Below, piece after piece: positions 16,634-37,487 of a stretch of DNA of 64,000 bases (positions are counted from its first letter, which is position 1; every line of letters starts with the position of its first letter). Source of the DNA: Blastomonas sp. Lineage in GTDB: Bacteria > Pseudomonadota > Alphaproteobacteria > Sphingomonadales > Sphingomonadaceae. The stretch covers positions 1 through 64,000 of the forward strand of contig NZ_JAUCZC010000006.1 in the NCBI RefSeq assembly GCF_030373265.1. Direction: 5' to 3'. Made by a program: the position numbers and the translations under genes. Under the pieces are notes generated by a model, which worked only from the letters and a program-made list of their open reading frames with translations, had not been told where the DNA came from and did no database searches.

Positions 16634-16665
16634 CGCCCACCGTTCAGTTTCACGGTCGGCAGTGA

Positions 16666-17203: not shown

Positions 17204-17794
17204 TCAGGCCAAGTGGTTGCCCACGCTCCACCCCTGGCCCGCAAGATAGGTTTCGCCAAACTGACGGGGTGTCTCTTCTAGCGTCGTCGCTAGGCTGTCG
17301 TTCCAGCGGTTGAAAAAGCCGTAGAGCGCGATAACGGAAAGAAGTTCGACGATCTGTTCCTCGTCGAAATGTTCGGCCAGCTGCGCCATCGTCTGGTCGG
17401 TGACACCCGAGGGGGATTGGCCAGCGAGCACCGCAAAGCTGAGCGCAGCGCGCTCGGATGCCGAGAAAAGGTCGCTGCGCTCATAATCCCAGATCGCCGC
17501 GATCTTCTCGACAGTTGCACCGCTTGAGGCGGCATTGCTCGCAGTGTGCGCCGAGCAATACTGGCACCCCGCGGCCATGCTGGCGAGGTAGCCTGCCATA
17601 TATTTGAGGTCAGCAGGAACGCGCCCGGCCCCCATGACGGCAGACCACAATCCAAGCGTAGCCTGCAGGATGTCAGGTCGGTAGCCCAAGGTGGTTATAC
17701 TGCCTGGCAGCTCGGCAAAATCCGCCAGGAAGGGGCTGGTGTCGATGCCACGTTCGGCGAGTTCTTGGAGCGTCAGTGACCGGATGCGTGCCAT
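17204..17794 (-). CDS. AhpD-like carboxymuconolactone decarboxylase family protein
   Basis: A 196-residue, all-helical protein with the CxxC-x2-H signature CQYCSAH (about residue 77), the redox-active pair of AhpD-type alkylhydroperoxidases. Despite the family name, the CxxC form is usually a thiol peroxidase or disulfide reductase and not a decarboxylase. Three bases separate it from the SDR stop, so it is the last gene of the long GntR-controlled operon. It might detoxify peroxide formed in the pathway, or catalyse a step on a lactone; context cannot decide. Confidence 0.8.
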   Translation of the reverse strand: MARIRSLTLQELAERGIDTSPFLADFAELPGSITTLGYRPDILQATLGLWSAVMGAGRVPADLKYMAGYLASMAAGCQYCSAHTASNAASSGATVEKIAAIWDYERSDLFSASERAALSFAVLAGQSPSGVTDQTMAQLAEHFDEEQIVELLSVIALYGFFNRWNDSLATTLEETPRQFGETYLAGQGWSVGNHLA

Positions 17795-17797
17795 GAT

Positions 17798-18565
17798 TCA
17801 GCCTTCCCATTCGCAATTGCCATCGACACCGATGATCTGCCCGGTGACATGCCGTGCCGCGTCCGACGCCAGAAACAACGCCATTTCACCGATTTCCGAT
17901 GGCTGGATCTTGGTTCTCAGCGAGATGAACCCGAGCGCTTCGGCCTCGACCTCGGCAACCGAGGCCCCGCGCGCCTCGGCAGCGCGCCCCATCAGCATCC
18001 GCATCCGTTCGGTATCCATGAAGCCGGGACGGATGCCGTTGACCCGAATTCCTGCCGGTCCGAGTTCACGCGCCAGGTTGCGGGTCATTCCCTCCAGCGC
18101 CCATTTCGATGCAACATAGGCGGTGCGCCCAGGCAGCCCAGTTACCGCCGAGGCGGTCGAGATGTTGATGATCGCCCCACTGCCCGCGCCTTTCATTCCC
18201 GGCACCACTGCGCGCACCATGTGGAACGCGCCCTGGACATTGACCGCAAAGCAGCGTGCCCAGTCTTCGGGGGAATTGGTCTCGACGTCGCCGATCGGCC
18301 CTGCAACCCCAGCGTTGTTGATCAGAACGTCGACCGGGCCGCAGTCGGCTGAAAACGCCTCGACCGCAGCGGCGTCGGCCACATCGACCCGGTAACCAGA
18401 CACCGCAGGGTTTCCGGCGCATGCGGCATCGAGCGCGGTCTGGTCGACATCGCAGATGCTGACCTTCCAGCCCGCATCGGCAAAAACGTGCGCGATGGCG
18501 AGGCCGATGTTGGCAGCACCGGCCGTAACCACAGCGTGGCGCGGCTGTGTTGTGGACTTGCTCAT
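17798..18565 (-). CDS. Short-chain dehydrogenase/reductase
   Basis: A 255-residue classical SDR. The cofactor motif is TAGAANIG (a variant of TGxxxGxG), followed by NNAGVAG, the catalytic Ser in NISTASAVTG and YVASK (Tyr and Lys). Asp at the end of beta-2 (CDVDQ) indicates NAD(H) preference. It should interconvert an alcohol and a ketone. The ATG overlaps the hyuB stop (ATGA), so it belongs to the catabolic operon and may act just before or after the HyuAB step. Confidence 0.85.
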   Translation of the reverse strand: MSKSTTQPRHAVVTAGAANIGLAIAHVFADAGWKVSICDVDQTALDAACAGNPAVSGYRVDVADAAAVEAFSADCGPVDVLINNAGVAGPIGDVETNSPEDWARCFAVNVQGAFHMVRAVVPGMKGAGSGAIINISTASAVTGLPGRTAYVASKWALEGMTRNLARELGPAGIRVNGIRPGFMDTERMRMLMGRAAEARGASVAEVEAEALGFISLRTKIQPSEIGEMALFLASDAARHVTGQIIGVDGNCEWEG

Positions 18566-20325
18566 GCTGCCTGCTCCCGCAATTTTCTGGTCATTTCACT
18601 GTTCAGGCTGCCGTCGCGGTTCGCGACGACGCCGTAGATATCGCGCGCGCGGCCCGCTGAAATCAGCCCTTCAGCCATGTCGCGCAGAACCGTTTCTGCG
18701 GGCCGCTCGAACGGCGATCCGTACCCGCCGCCGCCGCACGAGACCGCGAGCACGCGCTCGCCATCCTCGACATGCACCTGCGCGCAGGCGGCGAGCCGCT
18801 CGCGCGTTCCGTCGACATGGAGAAGATGCTGGTCCGCGCCGCCGCCCGATCCGCCGCCACGCACGCCGACCGGCGCGTTGACATGGCCATCGGAAAGGTA
18901 GCCGATCTCGATCGCACCTCCGACGGGTCCGAACTCGATCTTGGTCGACGGCGCGCCGTTGGTGCGGCCTGCACCCTCGCTGTCGGGCACGAAGGCCCGT
19001 CTGTAGACAAGGATGGGCTGGACGATCTCGGCGTGCTCGACACCATCGATGCAACACAAGCCGGCATTGCCGACATGGCCGACGGTCCACCAGGCATCGG
19101 CAACCGGGCTTGCTGCTCCGCCGCTCATGCCCAGGAAAACCTGGTTGACGAACGCCTTGCCGGTGCGCGGATCAATGCCCGACACAACGCCCGCCGAAGG
19201 CGCGATCACCGCACCGACCTCGGCCATGCCGATGCCGTCATCCAGCGCTGCCAGCGCGGTCTGCACCGAATTGGCGACTCGGTCCGCGATGTTGGTGGTT
19301 GCGGCCGAGCACGAGAACGGATGGATCGGAATGCCGGCAATGCACCCTTCGCGCAGTATCACGTCGATCCGCCGGAATGATCCGGCATTCTTTGGCACCT
19401 GGTAATCGATGCTGTTGAACACGCCGATCATCGCAGCGGTGCGCGCGCAGGCTTCGGAGAGGTTCATCCCGCAGGGCATGCAATCGGGATTGTCGCCCAG
19501 ATCGACCGTCACCCGGCCCGCAGCCGGATCGACAGTGATATGCGAGGTGATCTTCACCCCCTCGGCAGGGAGGCCGGGAAACGGATCATGCGTCGAACTG
19601 CCGCTGACCGACCCGGCCGGCAGGGCGGCAATGGCTTCTGCCATGCGCGCCTCGGAATAATCGAACCATTGCGAGGCGAAGCTTTCAAGCCGGTCCCAGC
19701 CGATGTCATGGGCCAAGGCGGTCAGGTTGCGCTCGCCAACGCGGACTGCGCCGACGGTGGAAAGGTAATCGCCATGCCACTGATGCGGCACGCGGATGCG
19801 CACCTTGCACATGCGGATGATGTCATCGATGTCCTGCCAGCCGCGCTGCACCTGCACCGCGGGGAAGATCAGCGCGCCCTCGTTATAGACGTCGGTCGCT
19901 TCGCCCATATAGGTCGTGGGCTGCGAATTGCCGATATCGGCCTGGTGCGCCTTGGCAAGCAAGGTGAAGCGGTGCCGCCCCTCGCCGTCGAACACCGGAG
20001 CGATCACCGAAAGGTCGGCGGGGTGCGAGCAGCCGTGATAGGGCGAATTGTGCAGAAAGGCATCGCCGGGCCGCTGCACCGGATGGAAGTCCTTTACCGA
20101 TTTGACCATCAGATCCGGCCCGGAAAGCACGTGGATCGGCAGGCTGTCCGCAGCGGTAATCAGCTCGCCGTCGTGTGTCAGGATGCAGCACGAGAAGTCA
20201 CGCGCGCGGTTGAGCACGCCCGATCGTCCGGTACGCAGCAAGGTGTTCGACATCGCGCGCACCACACCATCAAGGCGGCTGCGGAGCACCGCCATTTCTG
20301 CACCGTTGAAGCCTGGCGTCGTCAT
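18562..20325 (-). CDS. hyuB: Hydantoinase B / oxoprolinase family subunit
   Basis: A 587-residue HyuB-type protein: SNTLLRTGRSGVLNRARDFS at the N-terminus, the HPADLSV metal-site region (GCSHPADLSVIAPVF) and GGGSGGG/CGGGGYG glycine loops at the C-terminus are family marks. HyuB pairs with HyuA in ATP-dependent hydantoinases, 5-oxoprolinase, caprolactamase and in acetone/acetophenone carboxylases, where phosphorylated intermediates are used to open a ring or to carboxylate a ketone. ATG 20325 overlaps the hyuA stop (ATGA). The family is sure; the reaction is not. Confidence 0.85.
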   Translation of the reverse strand: MTTPGFNGAEMAVLRSRLDGVVRAMSNTLLRTGRSGVLNRARDFSCCILTHDGELITAADSLPIHVLSGPDLMVKSVKDFHPVQRPGDAFLHNSPYHGCSHPADLSVIAPVFDGEGRHRFTLLAKAHQADIGNSQPTTYMGEATDVYNEGALIFPAVQVQRGWQDIDDIIRMCKVRIRVPHQWHGDYLSTVGAVRVGERNLTALAHDIGWDRLESFASQWFDYSEARMAEAIAALPAGSVSGSSTHDPFPGLPAEGVKITSHITVDPAAGRVTVDLGDNPDCMPCGMNLSEACARTAAMIGVFNSIDYQVPKNAGSFRRIDVILREGCIAGIPIHPFSCSAATTNIADRVANSVQTALAALDDGIGMAEVGAVIAPSAGVVSGIDPRTGKAFVNQVFLGMSGGAASPVADAWWTVGHVGNAGLCCIDGVEHAEIVQPILVYRRAFVPDSEGAGRTNGAPSTKIEFGPVGGAIEIGYLSDGHVNAPVGVRGGGSGGGADQHLLHVDGTRERLAACAQVHVEDGERVLAVSCGGGGYGSPFERPAETVLRDMAEGLISAGRARDIYGVVANRDGSLNSEMTRKLREQAA

Positions 20326-22388
20326 ACGGAGCGTTCCTCGATCAAGATGGTCCCCGGCACCGAGCGCCAGAAGCACGACGCCGGATCGACGACGATGGTG
20401 GTGAAATCGGATTCGATGATTGCCGGGCCGTCGTACACTTGGTCCGCGGGCAGCGCGTCAAGCCGCCACACCGGGGCATCGGCTCGCCCGGTTCCAGCGA
20501 AATACACGCTGCGGTGACCCGCTGGCGACGGATCGGTTTGCGCCATCGCCAGTCGGAAATCGGACTCTCCATCGCGCGCCGAGCATTGCACCCGCGCGCG
20601 CAGGCCGATCAGCTCGATATCCGATGCCGGGTCAACTATGGTGAACAGCCGGAGGTGCTCGGCCTCAAACCGGGCGCGGAAATCCGCGATGGCCACAGAG
20701 GTTGAAAAATCGGGATAGGGCAACGGAACGTCTATTTCCCAAGCCTGCCCCTCATAACGCGCCTCGGCGATGAAATGCGTGTCGCCAGGCCGGCCCGATC
20801 GCACGATGAAGTCCTTGGCACGCGCCGCCAGCCCGGCGACCGCAGCGCTCACCGCTTCGACGTCGAAGCGCGCGGTATTGCTGTGCACAGTCGCGGCAAA
20901 CTCGGCGGTGATGTCGGACATCATTGCGCCTGCCGCGCTCATCGCTGCGCCGGTCTCGGGGATCAGCAGTCGCGGACACCCCAGCCGCCGCGCAATAAAG
21001 GTCGAGTTGAGCCCCGCCGCTCCGCCGCCGCCAATCAGTACCGCCTTGGCCGGATCGATGCCCTGGTTGACGACAAGATCCTGGATCGCCTGAACCATTG
21101 CCTCGGTGGCAAGGTCGACGATCGACCAGGCGGCCTCTTCAATCGATACCCCCAAAGGCTTGGCGATATACGTCTCGATCGCGCCGCGCGCACCGTCGGC
21201 ATCGAGCTGCATCTTGCCGCCGAGGAAGAAGTCAGGGTCGAGATAGCCCAGCACCACGCATGCATCGGTTACCGTGGGCAGAGTGCCGCCGCGCTGGTAG
21301 CACACCGGGCCCGGCATCGCGCCTGCGCTCTGCGGGCCGACATGCAGCAGGCCCGAGGCGTCGACCCGCGCGATGCTGCCCCCGCCTGCGCCGACGCTCT
21401 TCACTTCGACGGACGGATAGCCCGCCAGATGCCCGCGATACGGCTCGCCAATCCACAGGTCGCGGGTCATCGCAACGCGCCCCTCGGCGATGATCGAAAT
21501 GTCATAGGTGGTGCCACCGGTGTCGGCGATGATCGCATTGTCGAAACCACCCTCGCGCAGGGCATAGTGCCGCCCGGCCACCGGGGCCATCGATGGCCCC
21601 GAGTTGATCGCGGAAATCGGCTGCGCGGCGACTTCGCGGGCATCGACCATGCCGCCCGCGCTGGTCAGCACCATCACGCGGCCGGCAAAACCGGCTTTAG
21701 CCAGCCGCGCTTCGAGGCTGCCGAGATACGCGCCCATCAGGGGCTTGAGCGAGGCGTCGATCGCAGCCGATGACGCGCGGCGAAACTCGCGCAGCGTCGG
21801 GTTAACGCTGTGCGACAGGCTGTAGGGCATTTCGGGAAAGCGCGCCGCGATCATTGCGCCGATGCGGTTTTCATGGTCCGGGTTGACCGTCGACCACAGC
21901 AGGGCAACCGCGATCGCTTCGACATCAGCGGCGGCAATCTGATCGAGCACCTGTGCGGTGGCCGCTTCATCAAGCTCGGTCAAAACCTTGCCGCCCGCCA
22001 TGATCCGTTCGGGAACCTCGAAGGTCAGCGCACGCGGCACGTAAGGTTGCGGATAGGCGTGCGCATGGTTGAACGGCTCGGCGCGGCCACCTTCGCGGAA
22101 CAGCAGCATGTCACGATGCCCCGCCGTAACAATCAGCGCGGTGCGCGCGGTGCGTCCCTGAATGATCGCGTTGATCGCATGGGTGGTGCCGTGGATGAAG
22201 CTGTCGCCGCGCGCGAGCAGGTCGCCGAGCGTCAGGCCGCGCGCGTCGGCGGCGACACGCAGCGCGTCGAGCACGCCCGCCACCGGGTCGGACGGCGTGG
22301 TTGCAGCCTTGTGCAGCGTGATCGTGCCGTCATCTTCCTCGACGACAAGGTCGGTGAAGGTACCCCCGGTATCGGTTGCAAAGCGCAT
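20322..22388 (-). CDS. hyuA: Hydantoinase A / oxoprolinase family ATPase subunit
   Basis: A 688-residue HyuA-type subunit with the ASKHA nucleotide-binding elements ATDTGGTFTDLVVEE (start), ADTGGTTYDIS (middle) and LIGGGGAAGLN (adenosine). It phosphorylates substrate or carbonate so that HyuB can complete ring opening or carboxylation. The pair is two-subunit, without the extra subunits of acetophenone carboxylase or the Zn subunit of acetone carboxylase, which favours amide/lactam hydrolysis, but divergent two-subunit carboxylases cannot be excluded. The ATG at 22388 shares one base with the BKACE stop (TGATG). Confidence 0.87.
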   Translation of the reverse strand: MRFATDTGGTFTDLVVEEDDGTITLHKAATTPSDPVAGVLDALRVAADARGLTLGDLLARGDSFIHGTTHAINAIIQGRTARTALIVTAGHRDMLLFREGGRAEPFNHAHAYPQPYVPRALTFEVPERIMAGGKVLTELDEAATAQVLDQIAAADVEAIAVALLWSTVNPDHENRIGAMIAARFPEMPYSLSHSVNPTLREFRRASSAAIDASLKPLMGAYLGSLEARLAKAGFAGRVMVLTSAGGMVDAREVAAQPISAINSGPSMAPVAGRHYALREGGFDNAIIADTGGTTYDISIIAEGRVAMTRDLWIGEPYRGHLAGYPSVEVKSVGAGGGSIARVDASGLLHVGPQSAGAMPGPVCYQRGGTLPTVTDACVVLGYLDPDFFLGGKMQLDADGARGAIETYIAKPLGVSIEEAAWSIVDLATEAMVQAIQDLVVNQGIDPAKAVLIGGGGAAGLNSTFIARRLGCPRLLIPETGAAMSAAGAMMSDITAEFAATVHSNTARFDVEAVSAAVAGLAARAKDFIVRSGRPGDTHFIAEARYEGQAWEIDVPLPYPDFSTSVAIADFRARFEAEHLRLFTIVDPASDIELIGLRARVQCSARDGESDFRLAMAQTDPSPAGHRSVYFAGTGRADAPVWRLDALPADQVYDGPAIIESDFTTIVVDPASCFWRSVPGTILIEERSV

Positions 22389-23320
22389 CAGAAAGTGACC
22401 CTGTCCCCGCCCTTGGTGCCCAGCATTTCGCGCGCCTCTTCGGGTGTGGCGATGGGAATATCCAGCGCATCGAGAATCTGGCGGACCTTGCGCACCTGCT
22501 GCGCGTTGCTGACCGCGAGCTCGCCCTTGCCGATGTACAGGCTGTCTTCCAGACCGACGCGGACGCTGCCACCCACAAGGGCACATTGCGCAAGGAACTT
22601 CATCTGTGGCCGTCCGACGGCGAAGCACGACATGATGTAATCGTCGCCAAACAGACGGTCGGCGGTCTGCTTCATCAGGAAAAAGTTTTCCAGATCCGCG
22701 CCCAGTCCACCCAGAATCCCGAAGATGCCCTGGATGAGGAACGGCGGCTTGATCAGGCCAAGGTCTGCAAAGTGCTTCACGCTGTAGAGATGGCCGATAT
22801 CGTAGCATTCATATTCGAAGCGGGTGCCATGGCCCTCACCCAGTTCGGTCATGATCCTTTCGATCAGCGCGAAGTTGTGGTTGGCGGGAAACCGCTTGGA
22901 GCCCAGCATGAGCTCGCGTTCCCACTCGTGCTTCCAGTCGAACTTGTCGGCAAGCGGCCAGAAGCCGAAGTTCATCGAGCCCATGTTGAGCGAGGTCATC
23001 TCGGGGCTGGCGGCGAGCGGCCCGGCCATGCGGTCTTCTTCGCTGAACCCCGGAGCGCCGCCGGTGGTGATGTTGATGATCGCGTCGGTCTGCTGCTTGA
23101 TTCGCGGCAGGAACTGCATGTAGAGCGCAGGATCGGGCGAAGGCCGTCCGTCGATCGGGTCCCGTGCATGCAGGTGGAGCACCGCAGCCCCCGCCTCGAC
23201 TGCCTCGATCGCCTGCTCGGCAATCTCGTCAGGCGTCACCGGCAGATAGGGCGACATGCTGGGCGTGTGGATCGATCCTGTGACTGCGCAGGTGATGATC
23301 GCCTTACCGGTATGTTTCAT
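22388..23320 (-). CDS. Beta-keto acid cleavage enzyme (BKACE, DUF849)
   Basis: A 310-residue TIM-barrel protein of the DUF849 family. It begins IITCAVTGSIHTPSMSPYLP and has the zinc-binding HxH in VLHLHARDPIDGRPSP. Characterised members (such as Kce in lysine fermentation) condense a beta-keto acid with acetyl-CoA to give acetoacetate and a new acyl-CoA. The neighbouring HyuAB could supply the beta-keto acid, if it acts as a ketone carboxylase, or a precursor of it. TTGGAG precedes ATG 23320. The pocket residues that set chain charge cannot be judged by eye. Confidence 0.88.
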   Translation of the reverse strand: MKHTGKAIITCAVTGSIHTPSMSPYLPVTPDEIAEQAIEAVEAGAAVLHLHARDPIDGRPSPDPALYMQFLPRIKQQTDAIINITTGGAPGFSEEDRMAGPLAASPEMTSLNMGSMNFGFWPLADKFDWKHEWERELMLGSKRFPANHNFALIERIMTELGEGHGTRFEYECYDIGHLYSVKHFADLGLIKPPFLIQGIFGILGGLGADLENFFLMKQTADRLFGDDYIMSCFAVGRPQMKFLAQCALVGGSVRVGLEDSLYIGKGELAVSNAQQVRKVRQILDALDIPIATPEEAREMLGTKGGDRVTF

Positions 23321-23376
23321 CGATTGGCTCCAATTGTATCTAGAAAGGCATGGGCGGCGGCAGATGCCGCGCGGGA

Positions 23377-24711
23377 CTATTCGAGCGTGCGCATCGTTCG
23401 GCCAAAGGCCGTGCGGCTGGCCATGGCCATGGCCGCGCCGAAGCTGGCGACGACGAGGACCATCGCAAGCAACGACAGGTTGAGCTTGTCGGGGTCGCCG
23501 AACACGAAATCGGTGATCGCCCCGACCAGAGGCGGGCCGACGCCGATCCCCACCATCGTCACGATCGCGAGGAACACCGAGGTCACCACGCCGCGCATGG
23601 CAGGCGGGGTGAGCATCTGCACCCCGGCGAGCGATGCCGGCGCGCCCAAGGTCAGCGAGAAATTGAGCAGGCCATAAGCAACAACCGAGGTCACGACATC
23701 GCGGCTGAACGCGAACACCAGCATGGCAGGGATCGCTCCGAGCAGGCCGATTGTCATCACGGGAGCGGCCGGAGACGGCGCACCGTTGCGCGCAAACCGA
23801 TCGGTCAGCCAGCCCCCGCTGAGATGGCCCAAAGGCCCTGCGACGAGAATGACGCTTCCCACCAGCAACCCGGCCTGCGACGGCGTCATGTCGAACAGCC
23901 GAACGTAGAAGGTCGCGCTCCATGCAGCGATGGTCTGGACCAGCAGCACCACGGTGATCGAGGCGGCCACGTGCGGGATATAGGCGCTGCGGTGCGCCCT
24001 GGCATGCGCGACCGCGGGACCGAAGCCTGGCTTGGCGAGCGGATCGGCAACAGGCGCCCGCTTGGGCTCGCGTAACGTCAGCGCGATCACCAGTGCGAGG
24101 GCAAAACCGGGCAGCGCCATGATCACGAACGTGCCCTGCCATGGCGCAAGCTGCCCGATCACCGGCAGCGCAAGGCCCCCCTTGGCCACCAGCAAAGCCA
24201 GCACCGCGCCACCGCCGATCATCGCCGCGCTCTTGCCTAGGGATGCTCCGGTGGTGAACAGCGAGACCGCACGCCCGAGTTTTTCCTTGGGGAAATAGGT
24301 GGCGAGCAGGGACATCGCCGCAGGCACCAGCGCGGCCTCGCCAAAGCCGACGCCCAGCCGCGCGAGGAAGAGCGATCCGAAGCTGTCGGCCAGACCGCAC
24401 AGAGCCGTCGCGATGCTCCACAGCACGATGCCGATAACGATAAGGTTGCGGCGATTGACCTGATCGGCCATCCGCCCGAGTGGGATCGCAACAACGACAT
24501 AGAGAATGACGAAGCCGGTGCCCTGGAGCAGCCCGAGTTCGGTGTCGGAGATGCCCAGGTCGAGTTTCAATGGCTCCATCACCAGGCTGAGCACGAACCG
24601 GTCGACGAACGAGACAAGGTGCGCCACCGCCAGCAGCCCCGCAACATACCACGGGTACCATCCCCGGATGAGCGAGGAGGGCGGAACCAAGCGGGACGAA
24701 ACCGGTTGCAT
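23377..24711 (-). CDS. MFS permease
   Basis: A 444-residue major facilitator with 12 hydrophobic helices. The family loop 2-3 motif GRMADQVNRRNLIVIG, equivalent to GxxxDRxxRR, lies near residue 75, and the pattern matches the hexuronate/organic-acid (Spinster-like) porters of sphingomonads, which often accompany aromatic or ester catabolism. It would carry the substrate or a hydrolysis product across the inner membrane after TonB uptake. ATG 24711 shares a base with the SDR stop. A 56-base gap to the BKACE gene is the largest inside this operon. Confidence 0.85.
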   Translation of the reverse strand: MQPVSSRLVPPSSLIRGWYPWYVAGLLAVAHLVSFVDRFVLSLVMEPLKLDLGISDTELGLLQGTGFVILYVVVAIPLGRMADQVNRRNLIVIGIVLWSIATALCGLADSFGSLFLARLGVGFGEAALVPAAMSLLATYFPKEKLGRAVSLFTTGASLGKSAAMIGGGAVLALLVAKGGLALPVIGQLAPWQGTFVIMALPGFALALVIALTLREPKRAPVADPLAKPGFGPAVAHARAHRSAYIPHVAASITVVLLVQTIAAWSATFYVRLFDMTPSQAGLLVGSVILVAGPLGHLSGGWLTDRFARNGAPSPAAPVMTIGLLGAIPAMLVFAFSRDVVTSVVAYGLLNFSLTLGAPASLAGVQMLTPPAMRGVVTSVFLAIVTMVGIGVGPPLVGAITDFVFGDPDKLNLSLLAMVLVVASFGAAMAMASRTAFGRTMRTLE

Positions 24712-25478
24712 CAGCCGATAGCCGCCGAAATGCCTTCGTCGGCAAGCCAGGTCGCGCCGTGAACGGCACGCGCCTCGTTCGAGAGCAGGAACAGGATCAC
24801 GCCGGCGATCGCATCGGCATCGCTGAAGGCCACACCGCTGGGTGTCATGGCCTGCATCGCGGCAATCGCCTCGGCGTTGTTGCGGACATCCTCGTTCATC
24901 GGAGTGGCAGTGTTGCCCGGCGCGACCGCGTTGACCGCGATGTTCATCGGCGCGAGCTCTGCGGTAAGGGCGCGAGTCATCATCACCACCGCGGCTTTGC
25001 TGGCGCAGTAGAGGGCATGGCTGTTGATCCCGATCAACGCCGCGGTCGAGGCGCAGTTGACGATCCGCCCGCCGCCCCTGCGCTTCATCAGCGGTGTTGC
25101 CGCCACAATGCTGTTCCACAGACCTGTGACATTGATGTCGATCATCCGCGCCGCATCGCCGCCATCGGTGGCGCCAACGGGGGTTGCGTAGAACACGCCT
25201 GCGGCGTTTACGAGCAGGTCAAGCCCGCCCAGATCAGCCTCGACACTGGCCATCAGTGCCGTCATCGCATCCGCGTCGCGGACGTCGGCTTTGTATGGCC
25301 GCGCGTTACCGCCTGCAGCAACGATCGAACTTGCGACCGCATGCGCCTTGTCGAGCGAGGCACTGGCGAGGATGGCGACATCGGCGCCCTCGGCGGCCAG
25401 CGCGCGGGCAACGCATTCTCCGATGCCCGAGCTGCCGCCGGTGACCAGCGCCACCTTGTCTTTGAAACGACCGGTCAT
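24711..25478 (-). CDS. Short-chain dehydrogenase/reductase
   Basis: A 255-residue classical SDR with TGGSSGIG, NAAG, catalytic Ser in NCASTAALIG and YCASK. The acidic residue at the end of beta-2 is missing (ILASAS), so NADP(H) may be preferred. It is similar in size to, but clearly different from, the SDR at 17798, so the pathway probably has two oxidoreduction steps. It overlaps both the hydrolase stop (ATGA) and the MFS start (TGATG). Confidence 0.85.
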   Translation of the reverse strand: MTGRFKDKVALVTGGSSGIGECVARALAAEGADVAILASASLDKAHAVASSIVAAGGNARPYKADVRDADAMTALMASVEADLGGLDLLVNAAGVFYATPVGATDGGDAARMIDINVTGLWNSIVAATPLMKRRGGGRIVNCASTAALIGINSHALYCASKAAVVMMTRALTAELAPMNIAVNAVAPGNTATPMNEDVRNNAEAIAAMQAMTPSGVAFSDADAIAGVILFLLSNEARAVHGATWLADEGISAAIG

Positions 25479-26659: not shown

Positions 26660-28827
26660 CAGTAGGCGGCGCTGAGGCGGATGCCATAGGTCCGCGGCTC
26701 GCCGACCCGTCCAACTATGCCCGAAGCAAAGCTGGCGGTGCTGGTGACATATTCCTTGTCGGCCAGATTGCGCCCAAACAACATCACGCGAAAACCGCTG
26801 TCGCCAAAATCATAGCCAAGGCTGGCGTTGACCAGGCCGTAAGGCGACTGCTGGTCGAGACCGACATTGCCCGCGGTGAAGAACTGGCGGCCGCGGTGGC
26901 TGTATTCCGCACGCCCGATGATCGAGCCGTTGCCGACCGGCAGATCGAGATCGACAAAGGCTGCATAGGCCCATTTCGGCGCAAGGTTGAGCCGGTTGCC
27001 GGACGCATCGAACACGACGTTGCCCGGTGCGAGCGCGGTGGTGTAATTCTTGTAGACCGCATCGAGATACGCCAGGTTTGCACCAATCTGAATTCCCTGA
27101 ACGGGACGCAGCAAGGATTCGATCTCCACCCCATCGACGGTCGCATCGGAAGCGTTGGTGATGTCGATCACGCCCGGTGACAGGAACGACTGCACCTGCA
27201 GATTGGTGTAATCATAATGGAAATAGGTGCCGTTGAGGCGCCACAGCCGATCGAACAGCTCGAGCTTGACACCGGCTTCATAGCTCCACAGCGTTTCGGG
27301 ATCAAAGCCCTGGCTGGCGTTGCGGCTGGCGAAGTTGAAGCCACCCGACTTGAACCCCTTGGTCGCCGAGGCGTAGACCAGCACGTCATCTGCGGGCCGG
27401 AACTCAATGCCGATCTTGGGGGTCCACGCCGAGTAGACGTCGCGCAACTGATAGGTTTCAGGGAAGCCGGGCCGGAAGCCGCCGGTAGTCGCGAAGAACT
27501 GGCTGGCGGTCTGGTCGAAACGCTTGCGCTCGCGGGTGTAGCGCGCGCCGGCAGTCAGGCTGAGACGGTCGGTCAGCGCGTAATTGGCCTGGACGAAACC
27601 CGCGATCGCCGCGGTTTCTATGACCGGCGCAAAATTGGCGCGGACGTTGGCGGCAAAGGTCGTGACCGAAGAGTCCACCTGGATGTTCTCATCGAAATAA
27701 TAGACGCCCAGAATGTACGACAGGTCCCCGAGCGTGCCCGAGAGGTTGAGCTCCTGCGAAAACTGGCGCTGGCCCTCGAATTGATCGGTACGACGGATAT
27801 TGAGCGCAGTACCGTCGGTATCGCCGACCTGCTGCAGCTTGTTGGTGCGATAGCCGGTAAGCGAGTGCAAGGTTGCGCCACCCAGATCGTAGCTCAGATC
27901 AGCTGACGTACCCCATTGCGTACGCTCCGATGCCGAGCGGATATTGAGCGCCACGGTGCGAAAATCGCCCAGCACGCTGTTGGCGACCGGATCGGTCGTG
28001 GGCTGCAGCATCTTTACATAGCCGCCGAGCGCATCGTCGGAGTGGAGGTAGTCGGCGCGCAACACCAGATCGATCCTGCTGTTGGGGGTGAAGCGCAGCT
28101 GTGCGCGGCCGCCGATGGTGTCCTCGTCGTCGATATCGCCGACACCGGGAACGGCGTTGGCAAGAAACCCGTCGCGCCTGGAACGCAGCACCGAGAACGA
28201 GGCGGCGATCTTGCCGGGGACGACGGGTCCGCTGACATAGCCTTCGGCGCGCATGAAATCGTAATTGCCATAAGTGAGCTGCGCACGGGCGCGCATCACA
28301 TCGTCGGGCTTGCGGCTAATGACATTAATCGTTCCCCCGACCGAGTTGCGACCATAAAGCGTGCCTTGGGGGCCGCGCAGCACCTCGATACGTTCCACGT
28401 CGAGAAAGTTGCTCAGATAGCTTCCGGGACGCGCCATATAGATGCCATCGACGTGCATCGTCGACGATGGGTCCGATCCGCCGAAGACGTTGTTGGAGCC
28501 GATCCCGCGGATATAGACCTGCGAGAATGTGGCATTCTGTGTGACCTGAAGCCCGGGAGCGAGCGACACGAGATCGCGAATGTCCTTGATTCCGGCGCGG
28601 TCGAGCGTTTCGGCACTCACAGCGGTCACTGCGAGCGGTGTATCCTGCAATCGGGTCTCACCGGTACGGGTCGCCGTGACGATGATCTCGTCGTCATAGC
28701 CCGAAGCCGAGCGGCCAGGTTCGCGATCAGCAGGGGCGGCTTCCTGGGCGAATGCAGCAGGAGATGCGATGGTGACCGCGATTGCGATTGCAGATGCTCC
28801 CCGCATCGATGCGAATTGGCTGACCAT
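26659..28827 (-). CDS. TonB-dependent outer-membrane receptor
   Basis: A 722-residue receptor: signal peptide ending ASPAAFAQ, TonB-box-like region (DDEIIVTATR), plug domain with the conserved LRGPQGTLYGRNSVGGTIN, and a beta-barrel ending in ...IRLSAAY with a C-terminal aromatic. It has no N-terminal FecR-signalling domain. It imports a ligand too large or scarce for porins, presumably the substrate of the downstream enzymes. AAGGGG precedes ATG 28827. Two GntR operators lie 88-152 bases upstream, so this promoter is directly repressed. Confidence 0.88.
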   Translation of the reverse strand: MVSQFASMRGASAIAIAVTIASPAAFAQEAAPADREPGRSASGYDDEIIVTATRTGETRLQDTPLAVTAVSAETLDRAGIKDIRDLVSLAPGLQVTQNATFSQVYIRGIGSNNVFGGSDPSSTMHVDGIYMARPGSYLSNFLDVERIEVLRGPQGTLYGRNSVGGTINVISRKPDDVMRARAQLTYGNYDFMRAEGYVSGPVVPGKIAASFSVLRSRRDGFLANAVPGVGDIDDEDTIGGRAQLRFTPNSRIDLVLRADYLHSDDALGGYVKMLQPTTDPVANSVLGDFRTVALNIRSASERTQWGTSADLSYDLGGATLHSLTGYRTNKLQQVGDTDGTALNIRRTDQFEGQRQFSQELNLSGTLGDLSYILGVYYFDENIQVDSSVTTFAANVRANFAPVIETAAIAGFVQANYALTDRLSLTAGARYTRERKRFDQTASQFFATTGGFRPGFPETYQLRDVYSAWTPKIGIEFRPADDVLVYASATKGFKSGGFNFASRNASQGFDPETLWSYEAGVKLELFDRLWRLNGTYFHYDYTNLQVQSFLSPGVIDITNASDATVDGVEIESLLRPVQGIQIGANLAYLDAVYKNYTTALAPGNVVFDASGNRLNLAPKWAYAAFVDLDLPVGNGSIIGRAEYSHRGRQFFTAGNVGLDQQSPYGLVNASLGYDFGDSGFRVMLFGRNLADKEYVTSTASFASGIVGRVGEPRTYGIRLSAAY

Positions 28828-28914
28828 GATCGTCCCCTTTTGCTGTCCCCGGCCGTCGGCACGCTTGCCTAGCCGTGACACAGTGTAGACACAGGCCAAT
28901 TCGATAATCAAGTC

Positions 28915-28928
28915 AATCGTCGACGATT
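28915..28928. promoter_or_regulatory. GntR operator 1 (AATCGTCGACGATT)
   Basis: A perfect 14-base palindrome 88 bases upstream of the TonB receptor start. Same 12-base core as four other sites in this island. Confidence 0.7.
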
Positions 28929-28967
28929 TGTCTTATTAGGGTCAAATCTCTGTCAAAACTGCCATTT

Positions 28968-28979
28968 ATTGTCGACGAT
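28968..28979. promoter_or_regulatory. GntR operator 2 (ATTGTCGACGAT)
   Basis: Eleven of twelve core bases match operator 1. It lies 10 bases beyond the gntR stop and 41 bases upstream of operator 1, so two dimers could bind the receptor promoter. Confidence 0.65.
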
Positions 28980-28988
28980 CTTTTCAGC

Positions 28989-29774
28989 TTATGGGTCTTG
29001 CGATGGCGTGAGCAACCGGATGCACCAATCGCAATGATGCAGGATAACGGCTTCGGCGCTCCGCGAGTCGCACTCGAGCAGTGCATCGGTAAGTCTCTGA
29101 TAGTTGATGACATATTGCGGAGCGTGCGCGCCAAGATCGATCGCGGCGACAAGCAGCCGGTTCCAGTATTCGATCTGCATCATGCGCATCACGAAATCGA
29201 TATAGGGCTTTTGCGCGATGCCGTTTGCGACATAATGGAAATTGTTCAGCGCCTGGAAGAAGGCCACTCCCTCGGCAGGGTTGGAAGCCGCGGCGCGGAT
29301 CGCCGACATTGCTGCGCGGATCAGCGCCGGGTTGTCACCTTGCTGCGCACGGGCGGCGGCGGCTTTGAGGCCTAGCGCGGCGATAGGCGCGAGAACCTCA
29401 TACATGTCAGCAAGGTCATGCTGCTCCATCGGACGCAGCACCGCGCCGCGATCCGGAAGCAGTTCGACCAGCCCCTGACCGGCAAGCACCGCTAACGCCT
29501 CGCGCACCGGCGCGCGGCTGAGGTCGAGCTGCTGTGCCACCTCGGCCGCGATGATCCGGCTGCCGGGTGCGAGCTCGCCCCGGTCCATGGCAGCCATCAG
29601 CGTCTGATAAACCCGCTCGACCAGCGACATCTTGAGTTCACCGCCTGCGGTGATCTTCTGGGCTCCGAAAGGCCTCACCGGAACCTTGGGCTTTGCCGGG
29701 CCGGATTTCTTCGACGCGGCCCGCTGTTTTGCGGCGAGCTTGCCCTTGGGTTCGCCTGTTGTCGTCTTGCTCAC
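28989..29774 (-). CDS. GntR-family (FCD) transcriptional repressor
   Basis: A 261-residue regulator. After a Lys/Ala-rich leader of about 45 residues, the winged helix runs from VERVYQTLMAAMDRGELAPG to LVELLPDRGAVLR (recognition helix SRAPVREALAVL), then an all-helical FCD effector domain. FCD regulators of this kind sense pathway acids. I chose GTG 29774 because GAGGA lies seven bases upstream and because it leaves the operator at 29790 outside the coding sequence; an in-frame ATG at 29822 would place the operator inside it. Its gene precedes the receptor on the same strand, with operators on both sides, so it controls itself, the operon and the divergent malonate genes. Confidence 0.88.
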   Translation of the reverse strand: MSKTTTGEPKGKLAAKQRAASKKSGPAKPKVPVRPFGAQKITAGGELKMSLVERVYQTLMAAMDRGELAPGSRIIAAEVAQQLDLSRAPVREALAVLAGQGLVELLPDRGAVLRPMEQHDLADMYEVLAPIAALGLKAAAARAQQGDNPALIRAAMSAIRAAASNPAEGVAFFQALNNFHYVANGIAQKPYIDFVMRMMQIEYWNRLLVAAIDLGAHAPQYVINYQRLTDALLECDSRSAEAVILHHCDWCIRLLTPSQDP

Positions 29775-29789
29775 TGGATGTCCTCGTAG

Positions 29790-29801
29790 ATTGTCGACGA
29801 T
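29790..29801. promoter_or_regulatory. GntR operator 3 (ATTGTCGACGAT)
   Basis: Identical to operator 2. It lies immediately upstream of the proposed gntR ribosome-binding site, a position for autoregulation. Confidence 0.65.
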
Positions 29802-29866
29802 CCGTCCTCGTAACTCACTCATGATGTAATCACCAGTGGCAGAGACGTTTGGAAGCAGAGGGGACT

Positions 29867-29878
29867 ATCGTCGACGAT
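29867..29878. promoter_or_regulatory. GntR operator 4 (ATCGTCGACGAT)
   Basis: A perfect 12-base palindrome in the divergent region between gntR and the malonyl-CoA synthetase gene. Confidence 0.7.
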
Positions 29879-29916
29879 TATTGCGGTATGGAAGTTTCAA
29901 ATAGATTGAAATTGGC

Positions 29917-29932
29917 ATATCGTCGACGATAT
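29917..29932. promoter_or_regulatory. GntR operator 5 (ATATCGTCGACGATAT)
   Basis: The longest copy, 16 of 16 symmetric, about 107 bases ahead of the malonyl-CoA synthetase start, in an AT-rich patch likely to hold its promoter. Confidence 0.7.
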
Positions 29933-30038
29933 TGCACTCTCGGGTTGACAGGGGCGCATGGTGAAGCCTAGTCAGTGTCCACCAGCGGCCCGCCGGTACC
30001 CGGACAATGCCGTGATGTTGACAGGAGCCAGCGGGCGC

Positions 30039-31538
30039 ATGACCGATACAAGCCTTACCGCAGCGCTGGTGGCGTCGTTCGACCATGTCGCTGACCGGAT
30101 TCTGATCGCGCAGGGGGATCGAACGCTCAGCGGCAGGCAGCTGCGCCTGGCTATGGACGATGTCGCTGCGCGGCTGATGAAACTGGGCGTCGCGCCGGGC
30201 GACCGGGTCGCGGTACAGGCGCCCAAGTCGATTGACCTTGTTCTGCTGTATCTCGGTTGCCTGCGGCTGGGCGCGGTCTATCTTCCCCTCAATGACGCCT
30301 ATCGTCCTGACGAGATCGGCTATTTTCTGGGTGATGCCGAGCCCGCCTTGTTCATCTGCGCACCCGATGCCGCAGCCGGGCTGCAACAGTCGGGATGCCT
30401 GCCCAATGCGCTGTGCCTCCACACGCTCGGCCTGGATGGCGAAGGCTCCTGGCACGCGGTTGAACCCTCGCTTGCCGGCTTGCCCCCCGGTCCCACGTCG
30501 CCCGACACGCTCGCTGCAATCGTCTACACCTCGGGAACCACCGGACGTTCGAAGGGCGCGATGATCAGCCAGGGAAATCTGCTCGCAAACGCCCGCGATC
30601 TCGCCGCAGTCTGGCGAATCAGCGCGGAGGACACATTGTTGCACGCTTTGCCGCTATACCATATCCACGGGCTGTTCGTCGCGCTGCACCCACTGCTGCT
30701 GGCGGGCGCACGGATCGACCTGATGCCCAGTTTCGATCCTAGGCTGGTCCTCGAACAGCTTGGCGGCGCCACCATCTTCATGGGTGTACCAACCTATTAT
30801 ACCCGGTTGCTCTCCATGCCGGAACTCAACCGCGATACGACCCAGCACGTCCGCCTGTTTGTCAGTGGTTCGGCACCGCTGACCCCAGTCACTTTCGCTG
30901 CTTTTGGCGAGCGGACAGGGCGCAGCATTCTCGAGCGCTATGGCATGACCGAATGCGGCATTATCTGCTCCAACCCGCTCGATGGTCAAAGGCTGCCCGG
31001 CGCAGTGGGGCAACCGCTGCCGGGGTATAGCGTTCGCCTCGCCGACAAGGCCGAGACCGGTGTGCTCGAAGTCAAAGGACCCAGCCTGTTTTCAGGCTAT
31101 TGGCGGATGCCCGAAAAGACGCGCGAGGAGTTTCGTGACGACGGTTACTTCATCACCGGGGACATCGCCACGATTGATGCCGACGGGGTGGTCCGAATCG
31201 TTGGTCGCGACAAGGACATGATCATTTCAGGAGGGCTGAACATCTATCCGGTCGAGATCGAAGCGCTGATCGAGGCGATGGACGAAGTCGGCGATGTCGC
31301 GGTGGTCGGGGTGCCGCACGCCGATTTCGGTGAGGCGGTGCTGGCGGTGGTGTGCCTCAAACCGGGCCGTGTGCTCGAGGCAACCGGGATAGTCGATCGC
31401 CTCCGCGGACAGCTGGCCAGTTACAAGCTGCCCAAGGCCGTCGCGTTTGCACCTTCCCTGCCCCGCAATGCGATGGGCAAGGTGCAGAAAGCCGAGCTGC
31501 GGCGTGTGCATGCCGAACGTTTCGTCCCATGCGTCTGA
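30039..31538 (+). CDS. matB: Malonyl-CoA synthetase (MatB-type AMP-forming ligase)
   Basis: A 499-residue acyl-adenylate ligase. Visible core motifs are YTSGTTGRSKGAMIS (ATP loop), ERYGMTECG (A5), TGDIATIDADG, GRDKDMIISGGLNIYPVEIE (hinge) and PRNAMGKVQK with the catalytic Lys. The size and overall order match MatB/ACSF3, which activate malonate or methylmalonate with ATP and CoA. Malonate is favoured because the next gene encodes malonyl-CoA decarboxylase. ATG 30039 gives a normal MatB N-terminus; the frame is open back to ATG 29958. It overlaps the next gene by 10 bases and is divergent from gntR, with operators 4 and 5 upstream. Confidence 0.85.
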   Translation: MTDTSLTAALVASFDHVADRILIAQGDRTLSGRQLRLAMDDVAARLMKLGVAPGDRVAVQAPKSIDLVLLYLGCLRLGAVYLPLNDAYRPDEIGYFLGDAEPALFICAPDAAAGLQQSGCLPNALCLHTLGLDGEGSWHAVEPSLAGLPPGPTSPDTLAAIVYTSGTTGRSKGAMISQGNLLANARDLAAVWRISAEDTLLHALPLYHIHGLFVALHPLLLAGARIDLMPSFDPRLVLEQLGGATIFMGVPTYYTRLLSMPELNRDTTQHVRLFVSGSAPLTPVTFAAFGERTGRSILERYGMTECGIICSNPLDGQRLPGAVGQPLPGYSVRLADKAETGVLEVKGPSLFSGYWRMPEKTREEFRDDGYFITGDIATIDADGVVRIVGRDKDMIISGGLNIYPVEIEALIEAMDEVGDVAVVGVPHADFGEAVLAVVCLKPGRVLEATGIVDRLRGQLASYKLPKAVAFAPSLPRNAMGKVQKAELRRVHAERFVPCV

Positions 31539-32818
31539 GCCTGCCGTTCCTCACTAAGGCGCAAGCAGTGCCCGACCTTCTTGCCAGGGTCCAGCAGCTA
31601 TCACTCGGCCTGCTGGAGAGCTGCGGCGAGACGCAGGGAACCCTGACTGCGACCCGGCTGGCAGAAGCGCTGGCAACGCTCGATGAGGCCGCCGAAATTG
31701 CCTATAGCCACTGGCTGGTTGAGCAGCTTGGTCCCGACCCTGCAACGCTCGGCGCCAGCGTGGATCAATGGTTGAAACGGCCTGATGCCGAGGGGGCAGC
31801 ACAGCTGACGCGCAGCGCCGAGCCGCGTCGCCAAGAGCTGCTGCGGCGGTTGAATGCCGCGCCCTGCGGAACGAGACATCTGGTGACCTGGAGAGCGCGT
31901 CTTCTGCAACAGCTATCCCAAACCCCTGCACTGGCGCCGCTGGAGGCTGATCTCAAACACCTGCTTGCATCCTGGTTCAACCGCGGCTTCCTGGAGCTGA
32001 GGCCGATCACCTGGGATAGCCCGGCGCGGCTGCTCGAGCGACTGATCGAGCATGAAGCGGTCCATAATATCGCGGGCTGGTCGGATCTGCGCGGACGGCT
32101 GGAGGGTGACCGGCGCTGCTACGGTTTTTTCCACCCCGCGCTACCCGACACTCCTCTGATTTTTGTCGAGGTGGCTTTGACCGACCATGTCAGCTGCGCG
32201 ATTGCGCCTTTGCTGGATCACCCGGCGCACCGTAGCCCGCCCGATCAGCCCAGCACCGCGATCTTTTATTCGATCAGCAACTGCGAACCCGGGCTGCGCG
32301 GACTGCAATTCGGCAACTTTCTGATCAAGCAGATCGTTGCCGATCTGAAAGTCGAATACCCCTCGCTGACGACGTTTGCAACGCTATCTCCCATTCCTGG
32401 ACTGACCCGCTGGCTCAAGGCTGGCGGGCGAGATCTGGGGCGCGATGGCGACGATCCCCGCAGGCTGTGTGCGCTGTACCTTACCGGAGCAAAGCCTGAT
32501 GGAAGCCCCGGAAAGGCTTCCGATCCGGTTGCTGCATTCCATCTGGGCAACGGGGCAGAGCTGTGGCGGATCAACAGCCATGCCGATCCATCAGCCAAGG
32601 GGTTGGCACAAAGCGAAGGCATGATGGTCAACTATGTGTACCGCGAGCAGGATCTTATCAACAACCACGAACAGTTTGCACAGCATGGACGCGTGACGCG
32701 TTCGCGCGAAGTCAGCGCCTTGATCGCCGGACCGGCTACGCCGGCATGGCGCTGGACGTGGCCTTGGGGCCATACGCACCCGTTCCCACACTCGCAGGAG
32801 AAGTCGCTATGCCGATGA
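31529..32818 (+). CDS. matA: Malonyl-CoA decarboxylase
   Basis: A 429-residue protein of the MCD family: helical N-terminus, then EAVHNIAGWSDLRGRL, CYGFFHPALPDTPLIFVEVAL, FYSISNCEPGLRGLQFGNF (catalytic Ser region) and MMVNYVYREQDLINNHEQF (His region). It converts malonyl-CoA to acetyl-CoA and CO2 in the cytoplasm. With MatB it turns malonate into acetyl-CoA, so malonate is the expected product of the neighbouring pathway or a nutrient in its own right. It overlaps both matB and the thioesterase gene by 10 bases. Confidence 0.92.
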   Translation: MRLSLPFLTKAQAVPDLLARVQQLSLGLLESCGETQGTLTATRLAEALATLDEAAEIAYSHWLVEQLGPDPATLGASVDQWLKRPDAEGAAQLTRSAEPRRQELLRRLNAAPCGTRHLVTWRARLLQQLSQTPALAPLEADLKHLLASWFNRGFLELRPITWDSPARLLERLIEHEAVHNIAGWSDLRGRLEGDRRCYGFFHPALPDTPLIFVEVALTDHVSCAIAPLLDHPAHRSPPDQPSTAIFYSISNCEPGLRGLQFGNFLIKQIVADLKVEYPSLTTFATLSPIPGLTRWLKAGGRDLGRDGDDPRRLCALYLTGAKPDGSPGKASDPVAAFHLGNGAELWRINSHADPSAKGLAQSEGMMVNYVYREQDLINNHEQFAQHGRVTRSREVSALIAGPATPAWRWTWPWGHTHPFPHSQEKSLCR

Positions 32819-33222
32819 TCGAAACCTATCGCGGAGTCGCCTTCCCCTGGCTGTGCGACCAGATGGGGCACCTAACAACCTTTCGCTATGTCGAGATGTT
32901 CGATGTCGCATCTTATCATCTGATGCACGCGCTGGGCGACCGGCCAGCAGCGCAGGCTGGCGAGCTGGGCTGGGCGGACGTGAACCACTCGATCGACTAT
33001 AAGTCTGAGGTGGCCATTGGTGCTCTGCTTCTTATCCGCAGCGGCGTCGTCCGTACCGGGCGCAGTTCGATCGTCACCCGGCACATCATGACCGACCCCG
33101 ATGCTGGGGTTGAGCACGCCGTTCTGACAGCCACCACAGTCCGGTTCGACCTTGTTGCGCGGAAATCAGCGCCGTTACCCGATCTTATTCGCGCAGGGTG
33201 CGAGGCGTTGCATATCGCGTGA
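32809..33222 (+). CDS. Hotdog-fold acyl-CoA thioesterase (YbgC/4HBT type)
   Basis: A 137-residue hotdog protein. The N-terminal motif WLCDQMGHLTTFRYVEMFD matches the D-x2-GH pattern of YbgC/4-hydroxybenzoyl-CoA thioesterases, where the Asp is catalytic. It would hydrolyse a short or aromatic acyl-CoA to the free acid, perhaps releasing CoA from a BKACE product or preventing CoA trapping. GGAG lies eight bases before ATG 32809. It is the last gene of the matB operon. Confidence 0.8.
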   Translation: MPMIETYRGVAFPWLCDQMGHLTTFRYVEMFDVASYHLMHALGDRPAAQAGELGWADVNHSIDYKSEVAIGALLLIRSGVVRTGRSSIVTRHIMTDPDAGVEHAVLTATTVRFDLVARKSAPLPDLIRAGCEALHIA

Positions 33223-34572: not shown

Positions 34573-34671
34573 GGCCACGGCCTTATCGATCAGCGAATAG
34601 ACGACACATGAACCGGATGACGCAAGATCGCCATCTGCAAATCGCATGAAAAAGGGCCAGAAGCTGGAGGA

Positions 34672-37452: not shown

Positions 37453-37487
37453 GAGGCGAAACTCCCTGTGAAAACTGGTGCGGACCG

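Follow-up and report, generated by a model that had tools for sequence, protein, structure and literature searches.

Acetophenone carboxylase (Apc) of Aromatoleum aromaticum combines HyuA- and HyuB-type subunits with ATP motifs and converts a ketone to a beta-keto acid (PMC5214803). In the Hpe and Acv acetovanillone pathways, an aryl ketone is also carboxylated to a beta-keto acid and an aromatic acid is released later; in SYK-6, the last steps appear to be those of VceA and VceB, which are non-homologous to HpeE and HpeF (PMC9618137, PMC13101465). A beta-keto acid is what the beta-keto acid cleavage enzymes (BKACE, DUF849) require: BKACE15 of Paracoccus denitrificans accepts beta-ketohexanoate and 3,5-dioxohexanoate, in an aromatic context inferred by its authors (PMC11961710), and CsTAL cleaves 3,5-dioxohexanoate and serves anaerobic phloroglucinol breakdown (PMC10470551). 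In the oxidative deoxyribonate pathway, a beta-keto acid is proposed to arise through an SDR and to be cleaved by a BKACE to an acyl-CoA and acetoacetate (PMC6365646). Here we describe a gene island at positions 17204–33222 of a 64,000-base stretch of Blastomonas sp. (contig NZ_JAUCZC010000006.1, assembly GCF_030373265.1; the whole stretch is called the window), in which a HyuA/HyuB pair (HyuAB) lies next to a BKACE. We propose for HyuAB the ketone conversion known from Apc. A hydantoinase or oxoprolinase joined with a BKACE was not found in the open-access literature among the matches listed, and nothing was found there on menthol or menthone carboxylation.

The gene families that an earlier note had read from this DNA are all present, as thirteen genes, according to Pfam, NCBIfam and the coordinates. 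Neighbouring genes mostly overlap or sit at most about 60 bases apart, in an operon-like arrangement. On the minus strand, the genes for an SDR-family dehydrogenase (SDR2), HyuB, HyuA and BKACE, and separately those for an MFS carrier, a second dehydrogenase (SDR1) and an esterase-like hydrolase (EST), are packed so tightly that neighbours overlap or are only a few bases apart.

We tentatively favour a pathway from ester to alcohol to ketone, followed by HyuAB carboxylation and BKACE cleavage with malonate-fed acetyl-CoA, which we regard as plausible though short of probable. Under one predicted GntR regulator, an esterified secondary alcohol would be imported, EST would hydrolyse the ester, and the alcohol would be oxidised to a ketone. 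HyuAB would carboxylate this ketone with ATP and bicarbonate, and BKACE would cleave the resulting beta-keto acid with acetyl-CoA to an acyl-CoA and acetoacetate. A 4HBT-family thioesterase would free the acid from the acyl-CoA, and acetoacetate would be re-activated by CoA-transferase-family genes elsewhere in the genome, where there are two matches to this family. Malonyl-CoA synthetase (MatB) and malonyl-CoA decarboxylase (MCD) would turn malonate into acetyl-CoA, the co-substrate consumed by BKACE; the malonate would perhaps come from a malonyl half-ester that the esterase cleaves. We place malonate in this scheme as a free acid because a thioesterase beside MatB would presumably create a futile cycle.

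The conserved gene run and the link between HyuAB and BKACE

The genes for BKACE (22388..23320, minus strand, 310 aa; PF05853, NF053538), HyuA (20322..22388, minus strand, 688 aa; PF01968, PF05378, PF19278) and HyuB (18562..20325, minus strand, 587 aa; PF02538 with 372.7 bits, and an alignment to CapB) follow one another in the window. BKACE scores 320.5 bits on PF05853 (cut-off 24.8) and 475.8 bits on NF053538, the model of the 3,5-dioxohexanoate-cleaving type (cut-off 430); on the model of the amino-acid-cleaving type, it stays below the cut-off, with 211.9 against 382. Its solved relatives are 3e02, 3e49 and 8rio, and BKACE15 (8RIO/8RIP/9HNF) is a close relative with 352 bits. HyuA is 93% identical to a protein from a Blastomonas sp. 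metagenome-assembled genome (MAG) and 92% identical to that of Blastomonas fulva; for HyuAB of Sphingosinicella soli, the identity is about 91%.

Among 397 genomes of the family, seven (the window's own included) carry a BKACE of at least 85% identity, and every one has the same run of genes. We compared nine near loci: the window, its congener G336, G253, G044, G220 (taken as Rhizorhabdus wittichii RW1), G150 (as which Sphingosinicella soli, L051, was taken), G221, and two loci from public contigs, L052 (Sphingomonas jinjuensis) and L053 (an uncultured bacterium). The genes for the GntR regulator, TonB-dependent receptor, EST, SDR1, MFS carrier, BKACE, HyuA, HyuB and SDR2 stand in one order at all nine. 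This run thus includes, besides the genes above, SDR2 (17798..18565, minus strand; PF13561), the MFS carrier (23377..24711, minus strand; PF07690), SDR1 (24711..25478, minus strand; PF00106) and EST (25475..26617, minus strand; PF00144), a beta-lactamase-fold protein whose nearest solved structures are the carboxylesterase 5gmx and the fenoxaprop-p-ethyl hydrolase 7y3z. A CMD/AhpD-like protein with a CQYC motif (17204..17794, minus strand; PF02627, 43.9 bits) is encoded at eight of the nine loci and missing from G220. The thioesterase gene (32815..33222, plus strand; PF13279) is found at seven, missing from G150 and G221, and in five near relatives (G253, G044, G220, L052 and L053) it sits at the distal end of the arm that holds HyuAB and BKACE. 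The thioesterase is thus no less a companion of this run than of the malonate pair.

The adjacency of hyuAB and DUF849, to which the earlier note had pointed, holds across other gene orders and with a distant BKACE subfamily. A search with HyuB, independent of BKACE, gave 12 matches in ten of the 397 family genomes; ten had at least 50% identity (the one in G282 partial), and nine of these lie beside a BKACE. The 39% matches, in G174 and as a second copy in G220, fell outside the neighbourhood analysis. In a sample of the class, HyuA was matched in 27 of 385 genomes, its own included, and a BKACE is present in five (L090, L103, L106, L107 and L108) of 20 neighbourhoods, mostly the higher-scoring ones of the 47 matches listed besides the window's own. 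A scan of the phylum added two genomes only (3/398, own included). The plasmid sample comprised eight neighbourhoods from 38 records with a HyuA match and three from 159 with a BKACE match; no HyuA is annotated in the latter three stretches.

We built a HyuA tree of 42 rows, in which a row counts as BKACE-linked if any of five BKACE queries matched within the stretch examined. L056 and L059 gave no stretch above 550 residues, L057 and L058 were left out, and L094 copies L055. A BKACE was present for 19 of the 42 rows, and 16 of them fall in a single clade of 17 rows, on a branch that has support 93/90 but is not starred. The label requires five changes on the tree versus 14.0 for shuffles, with none of 500 shuffles as low. 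At two loci (L086, in G021, and L106), a distant BKACE subfamily, 33–36% identical to that of the window, occupies the place between SDR2 and HyuA; the reaction, rather than the ancestry of one gene, therefore seems to be kept. SDR1 adjoins EST or HyuB in many HyuAB loci.

Several further arrangements were seen. G253 carries a second, diverged HyuAB-BKACE cluster (L085; HyuB 66%, HyuA 53%), in which an SDR2 relative lies past the TonB receptor on the opposite strand. Two different HyuB genes in tandem and no BKACE occur at ten loci of other Alphaproteobacteria, several of them MAGs (L054, L055, L056, L059, L060, L093, L094, L096, L099 and L100), with one HyuA ahead where the stretch holds it and an esterase and two SDRs after in eight of the ten; these genes possibly encode a three-subunit enzyme. 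In L101 (3292–5358) and L104 (8969–11080), HyuA lies beside an SDR2-like gene with no HyuB in the stretch examined. A plasmid of Sinorhizobium chiapasense (L115) has SDR-HyuA-HyuB without BKACE; nearby genes are annotated as M81 family metallopeptidase and as 'acetyl-CoA carboxylase biotin carboxylase subunit family'.

Operator-like palindromes and the malonate genes

The palindrome ATYGTCGACRAT occurs six times in the 64,000-base window; shuffles predict 0.02 copies, and all 100 of them had fewer than six. All six copies fall within 28457–29930, around the GntR/FCD regulator gene (28989..29822, minus strand; PF00392, PF07729; its start is uncertain, with 29630 possible). One pair (28916..28979, sites at 28916 and 28968) precedes the gene for the TonB-dependent receptor (26659..28827, minus strand; PF00593, PF07715), and another (29867..29930, sites at 29867 and 29919) lies between the regulator gene and matB; both have a spacing of 52 bp. 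A further palindrome is found at the 5' end of the regulator reading frame (29790..29801) and one within the receptor gene (28457..28468). None of these sites is assigned to a strand. That the island forms a single regulon was an assumption in the earlier note; it now has support from the DNA itself, because palindrome pairs precede both arms. The GntR protein is their predicted binder.

We compared the upstream regions of nine loci by script. By a slightly looser pattern, with W at both ends, the receptor-side pair is present at all nine near loci; its sites are 52 bases apart at five of them, 53 at one, 62 at two and 63 at one, and the 52/53 and 62/63 classes differ by about one helical turn. 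The palindrome inside the receptor gene is also kept at all nine, with 421–468 bases between it and the closer of the two promoter sites; it could serve DNA looping or be a by-product of a conserved plug-domain peptide. Extra copies lie at the 5' end of the regulator gene in L032 and L033/L051 and on the MatB side in L032. Elsewhere in the 1.17 Mb of loci, the looser pattern matches three times only (L052 19370, L100 18826 and L112 6625).

The plus-strand arm starts with MatB (30039..31538, plus strand; NF005702; an upstream start at 29958 is possible), which scores 631.9 bits on NF005702 against a cut-off of 558 when read from 29958, and whose best solved relative is the malonyl-CoA synthetase 4fuq. 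MCD (31529..32818, plus strand; PF05292, PF17408) and the thioesterase follow. In matABC-type malonate operons, genes for MatB, MCD and a GntR/FCD regulator are adjacent, and the same three are adjacent here. No malonate carrier is encoded in the plus arm; past the thioesterase lies a TraB-family gene (33646–34647). The island thus differs from a matABC-type operon in that its plus arm has no carrier gene and is tied to a catabolic arm by shared palindromes.

The Rfam scan of the window gave no matches, and the frames tested outside the island gave regulators, TonB receptors, citrate-type carriers and other genes, with no further ones of the island's kind. The region 34672–53902, with four TonB receptors, two citrate-type carriers (37659–39575 and 46723–48201) and a response regulator accompanied by a 2CSK_N sensor kinase (43419–45672), looks like a tricarboxylate uptake region. 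Ahead of the island, 10646–14370 holds a phytanoyl-CoA dioxygenase match (39.1 bits, cut-off 22) and a carrier of the SBF (bile acid symporter) family.

Variant loci and a lead to aromatic compounds

Extra genes at variant loci bear on the proposed steps. A gamma carbonic anhydrase (gamma-CA)-like gene ends the order SDR2, BKACE, HyuA, HyuB, SDR1 in L086, and on plasmid p2 of Cupriavidus pinatubonensis (L110) BKACE and two SDRs diverge from HyuA, HyuB and a gamma-CA-like gene. The two proteins are 48% identical to each other, and no such gene was found in the other loci searched. These partners fit a supply of bicarbonate. Against this stands that relatives of gamma-CA include thioesterases (PaaY). 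A PaaY-like thioesterase was rejected but kept as a caveat, since the scores favour gamma-CA: 200.6 (L110) and 169.3 (L086) against 113.6 and 120.8 for PaaY, with both gamma-CA scores below the cut-off of 250. In Rhizobium sp. BT03, the genes for BKACE, an SDR, an ABC carrier, a thioesterase, HyuA and HyuB are followed, one gene on, by CoA-transferase A and B (annotated 3-oxoacid).

Other loci point towards aromatic compounds. A glutathione S-transferase (GST) gene lies beside HyuB in L107 and L103 (56% mutual identity), with more distant ones in L106 (36%) and L037 (32%). The L107 protein, encoded between HyuB and the thioesterase, has LigF as its best solved relative (112.7 bits versus 70.8 for the next), and it matches the NCBIfam beta-etherase model weakly (25.9 bits). 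In Niveispirillum cyanobacteriorum, the run is followed by frames that score above the cut-offs for oxalomesaconate tautomerase (LigU), LigK, LigA and a LigB-type extradiol dioxygenase. Two further frames, which we take from their neighbourhood and general knowledge to be LigI- and LigJ-like, comprise a sulfomuconolactone hydrolase relative below its cut-off and a protein without a family. In G277 (L038), homologues of LigI, LigU and LigK are found near a BKACE-SDR2 pair that has no HyuAB with it, and in RW1 (G220) the genes for a LigXa-like Rieske protein, a protein of the LigB family and an RraA/LigK-like aldolase lie within about 11 kb of the thioesterase. Together with the aromatic context that its authors inferred for BKACE15, the LigF-like GST and the Lig genes hint that some relatives may act on an aryl ketone.

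This aromatic reading is a lead that stands outside our main claim for the window's host. The genome of that host (95.8% complete) has no match to any of the four ring-cleavage families tested (protocatechuate 4,5-dioxygenase alpha, intradiol dioxygenase, the LigB family and HgmA), which means that an aromatic product could not be mineralised by those routes in this host. Protocatechuate cleavage in the host, considered as a candidate, was rejected as unsupported by its assembly. The genome does contain two matches to the alpha subunit of ring-hydroxylating oxygenases. Across eight cluster genomes, LigA is present in three and an intradiol dioxygenase in five, and neither is present in G000 and G044.

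Class of HyuAB, rival explanations and known systems

HyuA of the window carries the ATP-binding motifs DTGGTFTD, DTGGTTYD and AGAMPGP, and the DxGGTxTD, DxGGT and PGP motifs are kept with small changes in the window and at 17 of 17 further loci. By alignment to CapB, HyuB has the metal tetrad D43-H101-D104-H127; this D-H-D-H tetrad recurs in all 17 BKACE-linked HyuB proteins and also in L114. The ATP-binding alpha-type and metal-binding beta-type subunits expected of a carboxylase are therefore both present in the window and at all 17 loci. Before the metal HxxD, HyuB has NSPYHG (the HNSPYHG subfamily motif), as do the 17 BKACE-linked proteins, where the aligned chains of CapB, N-methylhydantoinase, Apc and Acx have ND. 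Of 34 HyuB rows, 31 have NSPY (one as NSPYEG) and three NDP (the second copy of L097, L087 and the BKACE-linked L114). Reading ND before the metal HxxD as a mark of hydrolases is our own usage, not a published criterion.

A number of observations weigh against a ketone carboxylase and the pathway built on it. By the published criteria, a two-gene HyuAB without a gamma subunit is of the hydrolase type (PMC5214803), and the subunit set of the island falls outside what is published for ketone carboxylases. No four-Cys gamma subunit was recognised by eye among 16 small two-CxxC frames from window positions 16000–34500 and the 17 loci; one is DksA/TraR-like (16666–16947, outside the island), and the rest look by eye like chance frames. 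Alpha' and epsilon subunits as in Apc are also absent, with one HyuA only, and two adjacent genes, HyuA then HyuB, of 688 and 587 aa are what hydantoinases and caprolactamases have. HyuAB scores nearest to caprolactamase (CapA 526.3 and CapB 256.3 bits, both under the cut-off of 1000), above acetophenone carboxylase (ApcC 312.1 and ApcD 67.0 bits, both under 1500), and the best PDB match of both subunits is CapAB (6YRA). Moreover, 23 of the 42 HyuA rows have no BKACE in the stretch examined, SDR2-BKACE pairs occur without HyuAB, which means that SDR2 alone may make the beta-keto acid, and the thioesterase has a single NCBIfam match, a weak one of 24.4 bits.

Because HyuAB departs from the published subunit criteria, a lactam route has to be weighed, in which HyuAB would be an ATP-dependent cyclic amidase that opens a lactam or imide to an amine-bearing beta-hydroxy (or beta-keto) acid, SDR2 would oxidise it to the beta-keto acid, and BKACE and the thioesterase would yield acetoacetate together with an acid, such as an amino acid. 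We consider this unlikely, though it has the two-subunit, hydantoinase-sized enzyme, the CapB tetrad and the caprolactamase scores in its favour. SDR2 relatives also accompany BKACE without HyuAB, as a beta-hydroxy acid dehydrogenase would, aminotransferases occur in some HyuAB loci (L112, L113 and L114), and frames that look amidase-like by eye lie near L106 and L108. However, two of the three aminotransferase loci lack a BKACE and the third has a distant HyuA (44% identity), while the conserved run of the nine near loci contains no aminotransferase, deaminase or amidase. The clade has NSPYHG where the compared hydrolases keep ND, the window's BKACE exceeds the cut-off of the 3,5-dioxohexanoate type and not that of the amino-acid-cleaving type, and the gamma-CA-like genes would have no evident role. 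We favour ketone carboxylation because it gives a beta-keto acid and needs no nitrogen handling, which the run at the near loci lacks. The route sketched in the earlier note, from ester to ketone, carboxylation and BKACE, gains from the HyuAB-BKACE link, the gamma-CA-like genes (two loci) and the 3-oxoacid CoA-transferase (one), with further hints from the LigF-like GST (two) and the protocatechuate operon (one), and is weakened by the subunit composition of HyuAB.

The malonate genes raise a different question. Co-conservation of the two divergent arms, by which the earlier note would have its island judged, did not hold: the malonate pair is optional, and the complete divergent arm is present in the window and the congener G336 only. 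MatB adjoins the cluster at five of the nine near loci (the window, G336, G253, L052 and L053, the last cut by a contig end) and MCD at three (the window, G336 and G253). In G044, there is a partial MatB match (171 of 499 residues) and no MCD in the genome; a 3150-residue frame there, which spans a partial AMP-binding match, was judged to be open by chance. No malonate genes were found in the examined flanks of G220 and G221. The left arm could thus be a self-standing catabolic operon and MatB-MCD an ordinary mat module, brought under the same regulator by operator duplication and sharing no chemistry with it. MCD is absent from three of the seven cluster genomes, G150 has a separate MatB-MCD-GntR locus on another contig with no full palindrome there, and the MatB-side palindrome pair is confined to the window and G336. 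We nevertheless judge this explanation improbable, as MatB is kept with the cluster in differing arrangements: divergent in the window, in-line as TE-MCD-MatB (TE, thioesterase) downstream in G253, as TE-MatB in S. jinjuensis, and divergent in L053, where the contig end cuts it; in these last two, MatB alone of the malonate pair is seen. Moreover, just 15 of the 397 family genomes have MCD, three of these by short fragments, yet it is enriched in cluster genomes (4/7 versus 11/390; one-sided Fisher test 4e-5, or 7e-4 with the two congeners counted as one, taking genomes as independent and ignoring relatedness). BKACE chemistry on 3-oxoglutarate would yield malonyl-CoA. If BKACE cleaved such acids, MCD could decarboxylate the product directly and MatB would rescue malonate lost to the thioesterase, in keeping with the overlap of the MCD gene with those of MatB and the thioesterase. 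This is very improbable: the thioesterase beside MatB would make for futile cycling, BKACE scores as a type for neutral side chains, and MCD is missing from several cluster genomes.

Some known routes were considered and rejected. Barbiturate or pyrimidine use would call for a ureidase or amidohydrolase and a fumonisin-type cluster for an aminotransferase, all of which the run lacks; carnitine degradation was set aside as well. For the RW1 genes Swit_3055-3066, described as expressed on dibenzofuran, and the oxoprolinase Swit_4143, no tie to the island's cluster was established.

We consider it possible, if rather doubtful, that HyuAB enzymes of the NSPYHG branch are ATP-dependent ketone carboxylases of a new type, which have two subunits, use no biotin, work without a gamma subunit and feed BKACE, in an aerobic route for aryl or other hindered ketones in Alphaproteobacteria and some Betaproteobacteria, with malonate-fed acetyl-CoA under one operator. 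If this is true, HyuAB proteins labelled 'N-methylhydantoinase' or '5-oxoprolinase' would be ketone carboxylases in one clade, BKACE would gain a natural source of its substrate, and aryl ketones, for instance lignin-derived ones, would have a route without a kinase and biotin carboxylase or oxygen-dependent Baeyer-Villiger enzymes. Even if HyuAB is a lactamase, the palindromes, the co-occurrence and the presence of the run in named strains (Sphingosinicella soli DSM 17328, Sphingomonas jinjuensis YC6723 and Rhizorhabdus wittichii RW1) make the substrate question directly testable.

Compared with the described systems, the island shares with caprolactamase CapAB (6YRA; PMC8453981) two subunits of similar lengths, the metal tetrad and the ATP motifs, but it lies far under the CapA and CapB cut-offs, has NSPYHG for the HNDP region and stands in a catabolic setting with BKACE. 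Apc includes alpha', gamma and epsilon subunits, and its genes have one for a CoA ligase as their neighbour, whereas the island has two subunits and a BKACE next to them (PMC5214803). The Hpe and Acv pathways use a phenol kinase and a biotin-dependent carboxylase instead of HyuAB (PMC9618137, PMC13101465). HyuAB is unmentioned in the excerpts on BKACE15 and CsTAL (PMC11961710, PMC10470551). The succession of SDR and BKACE in the island matches the route proposed for deoxyribonate, but the excerpted account of that pathway mentions no HyuAB, on which ground deoxyribonate degradation was rejected for the island, and no TonB receptor or malonate genes (PMC6365646).

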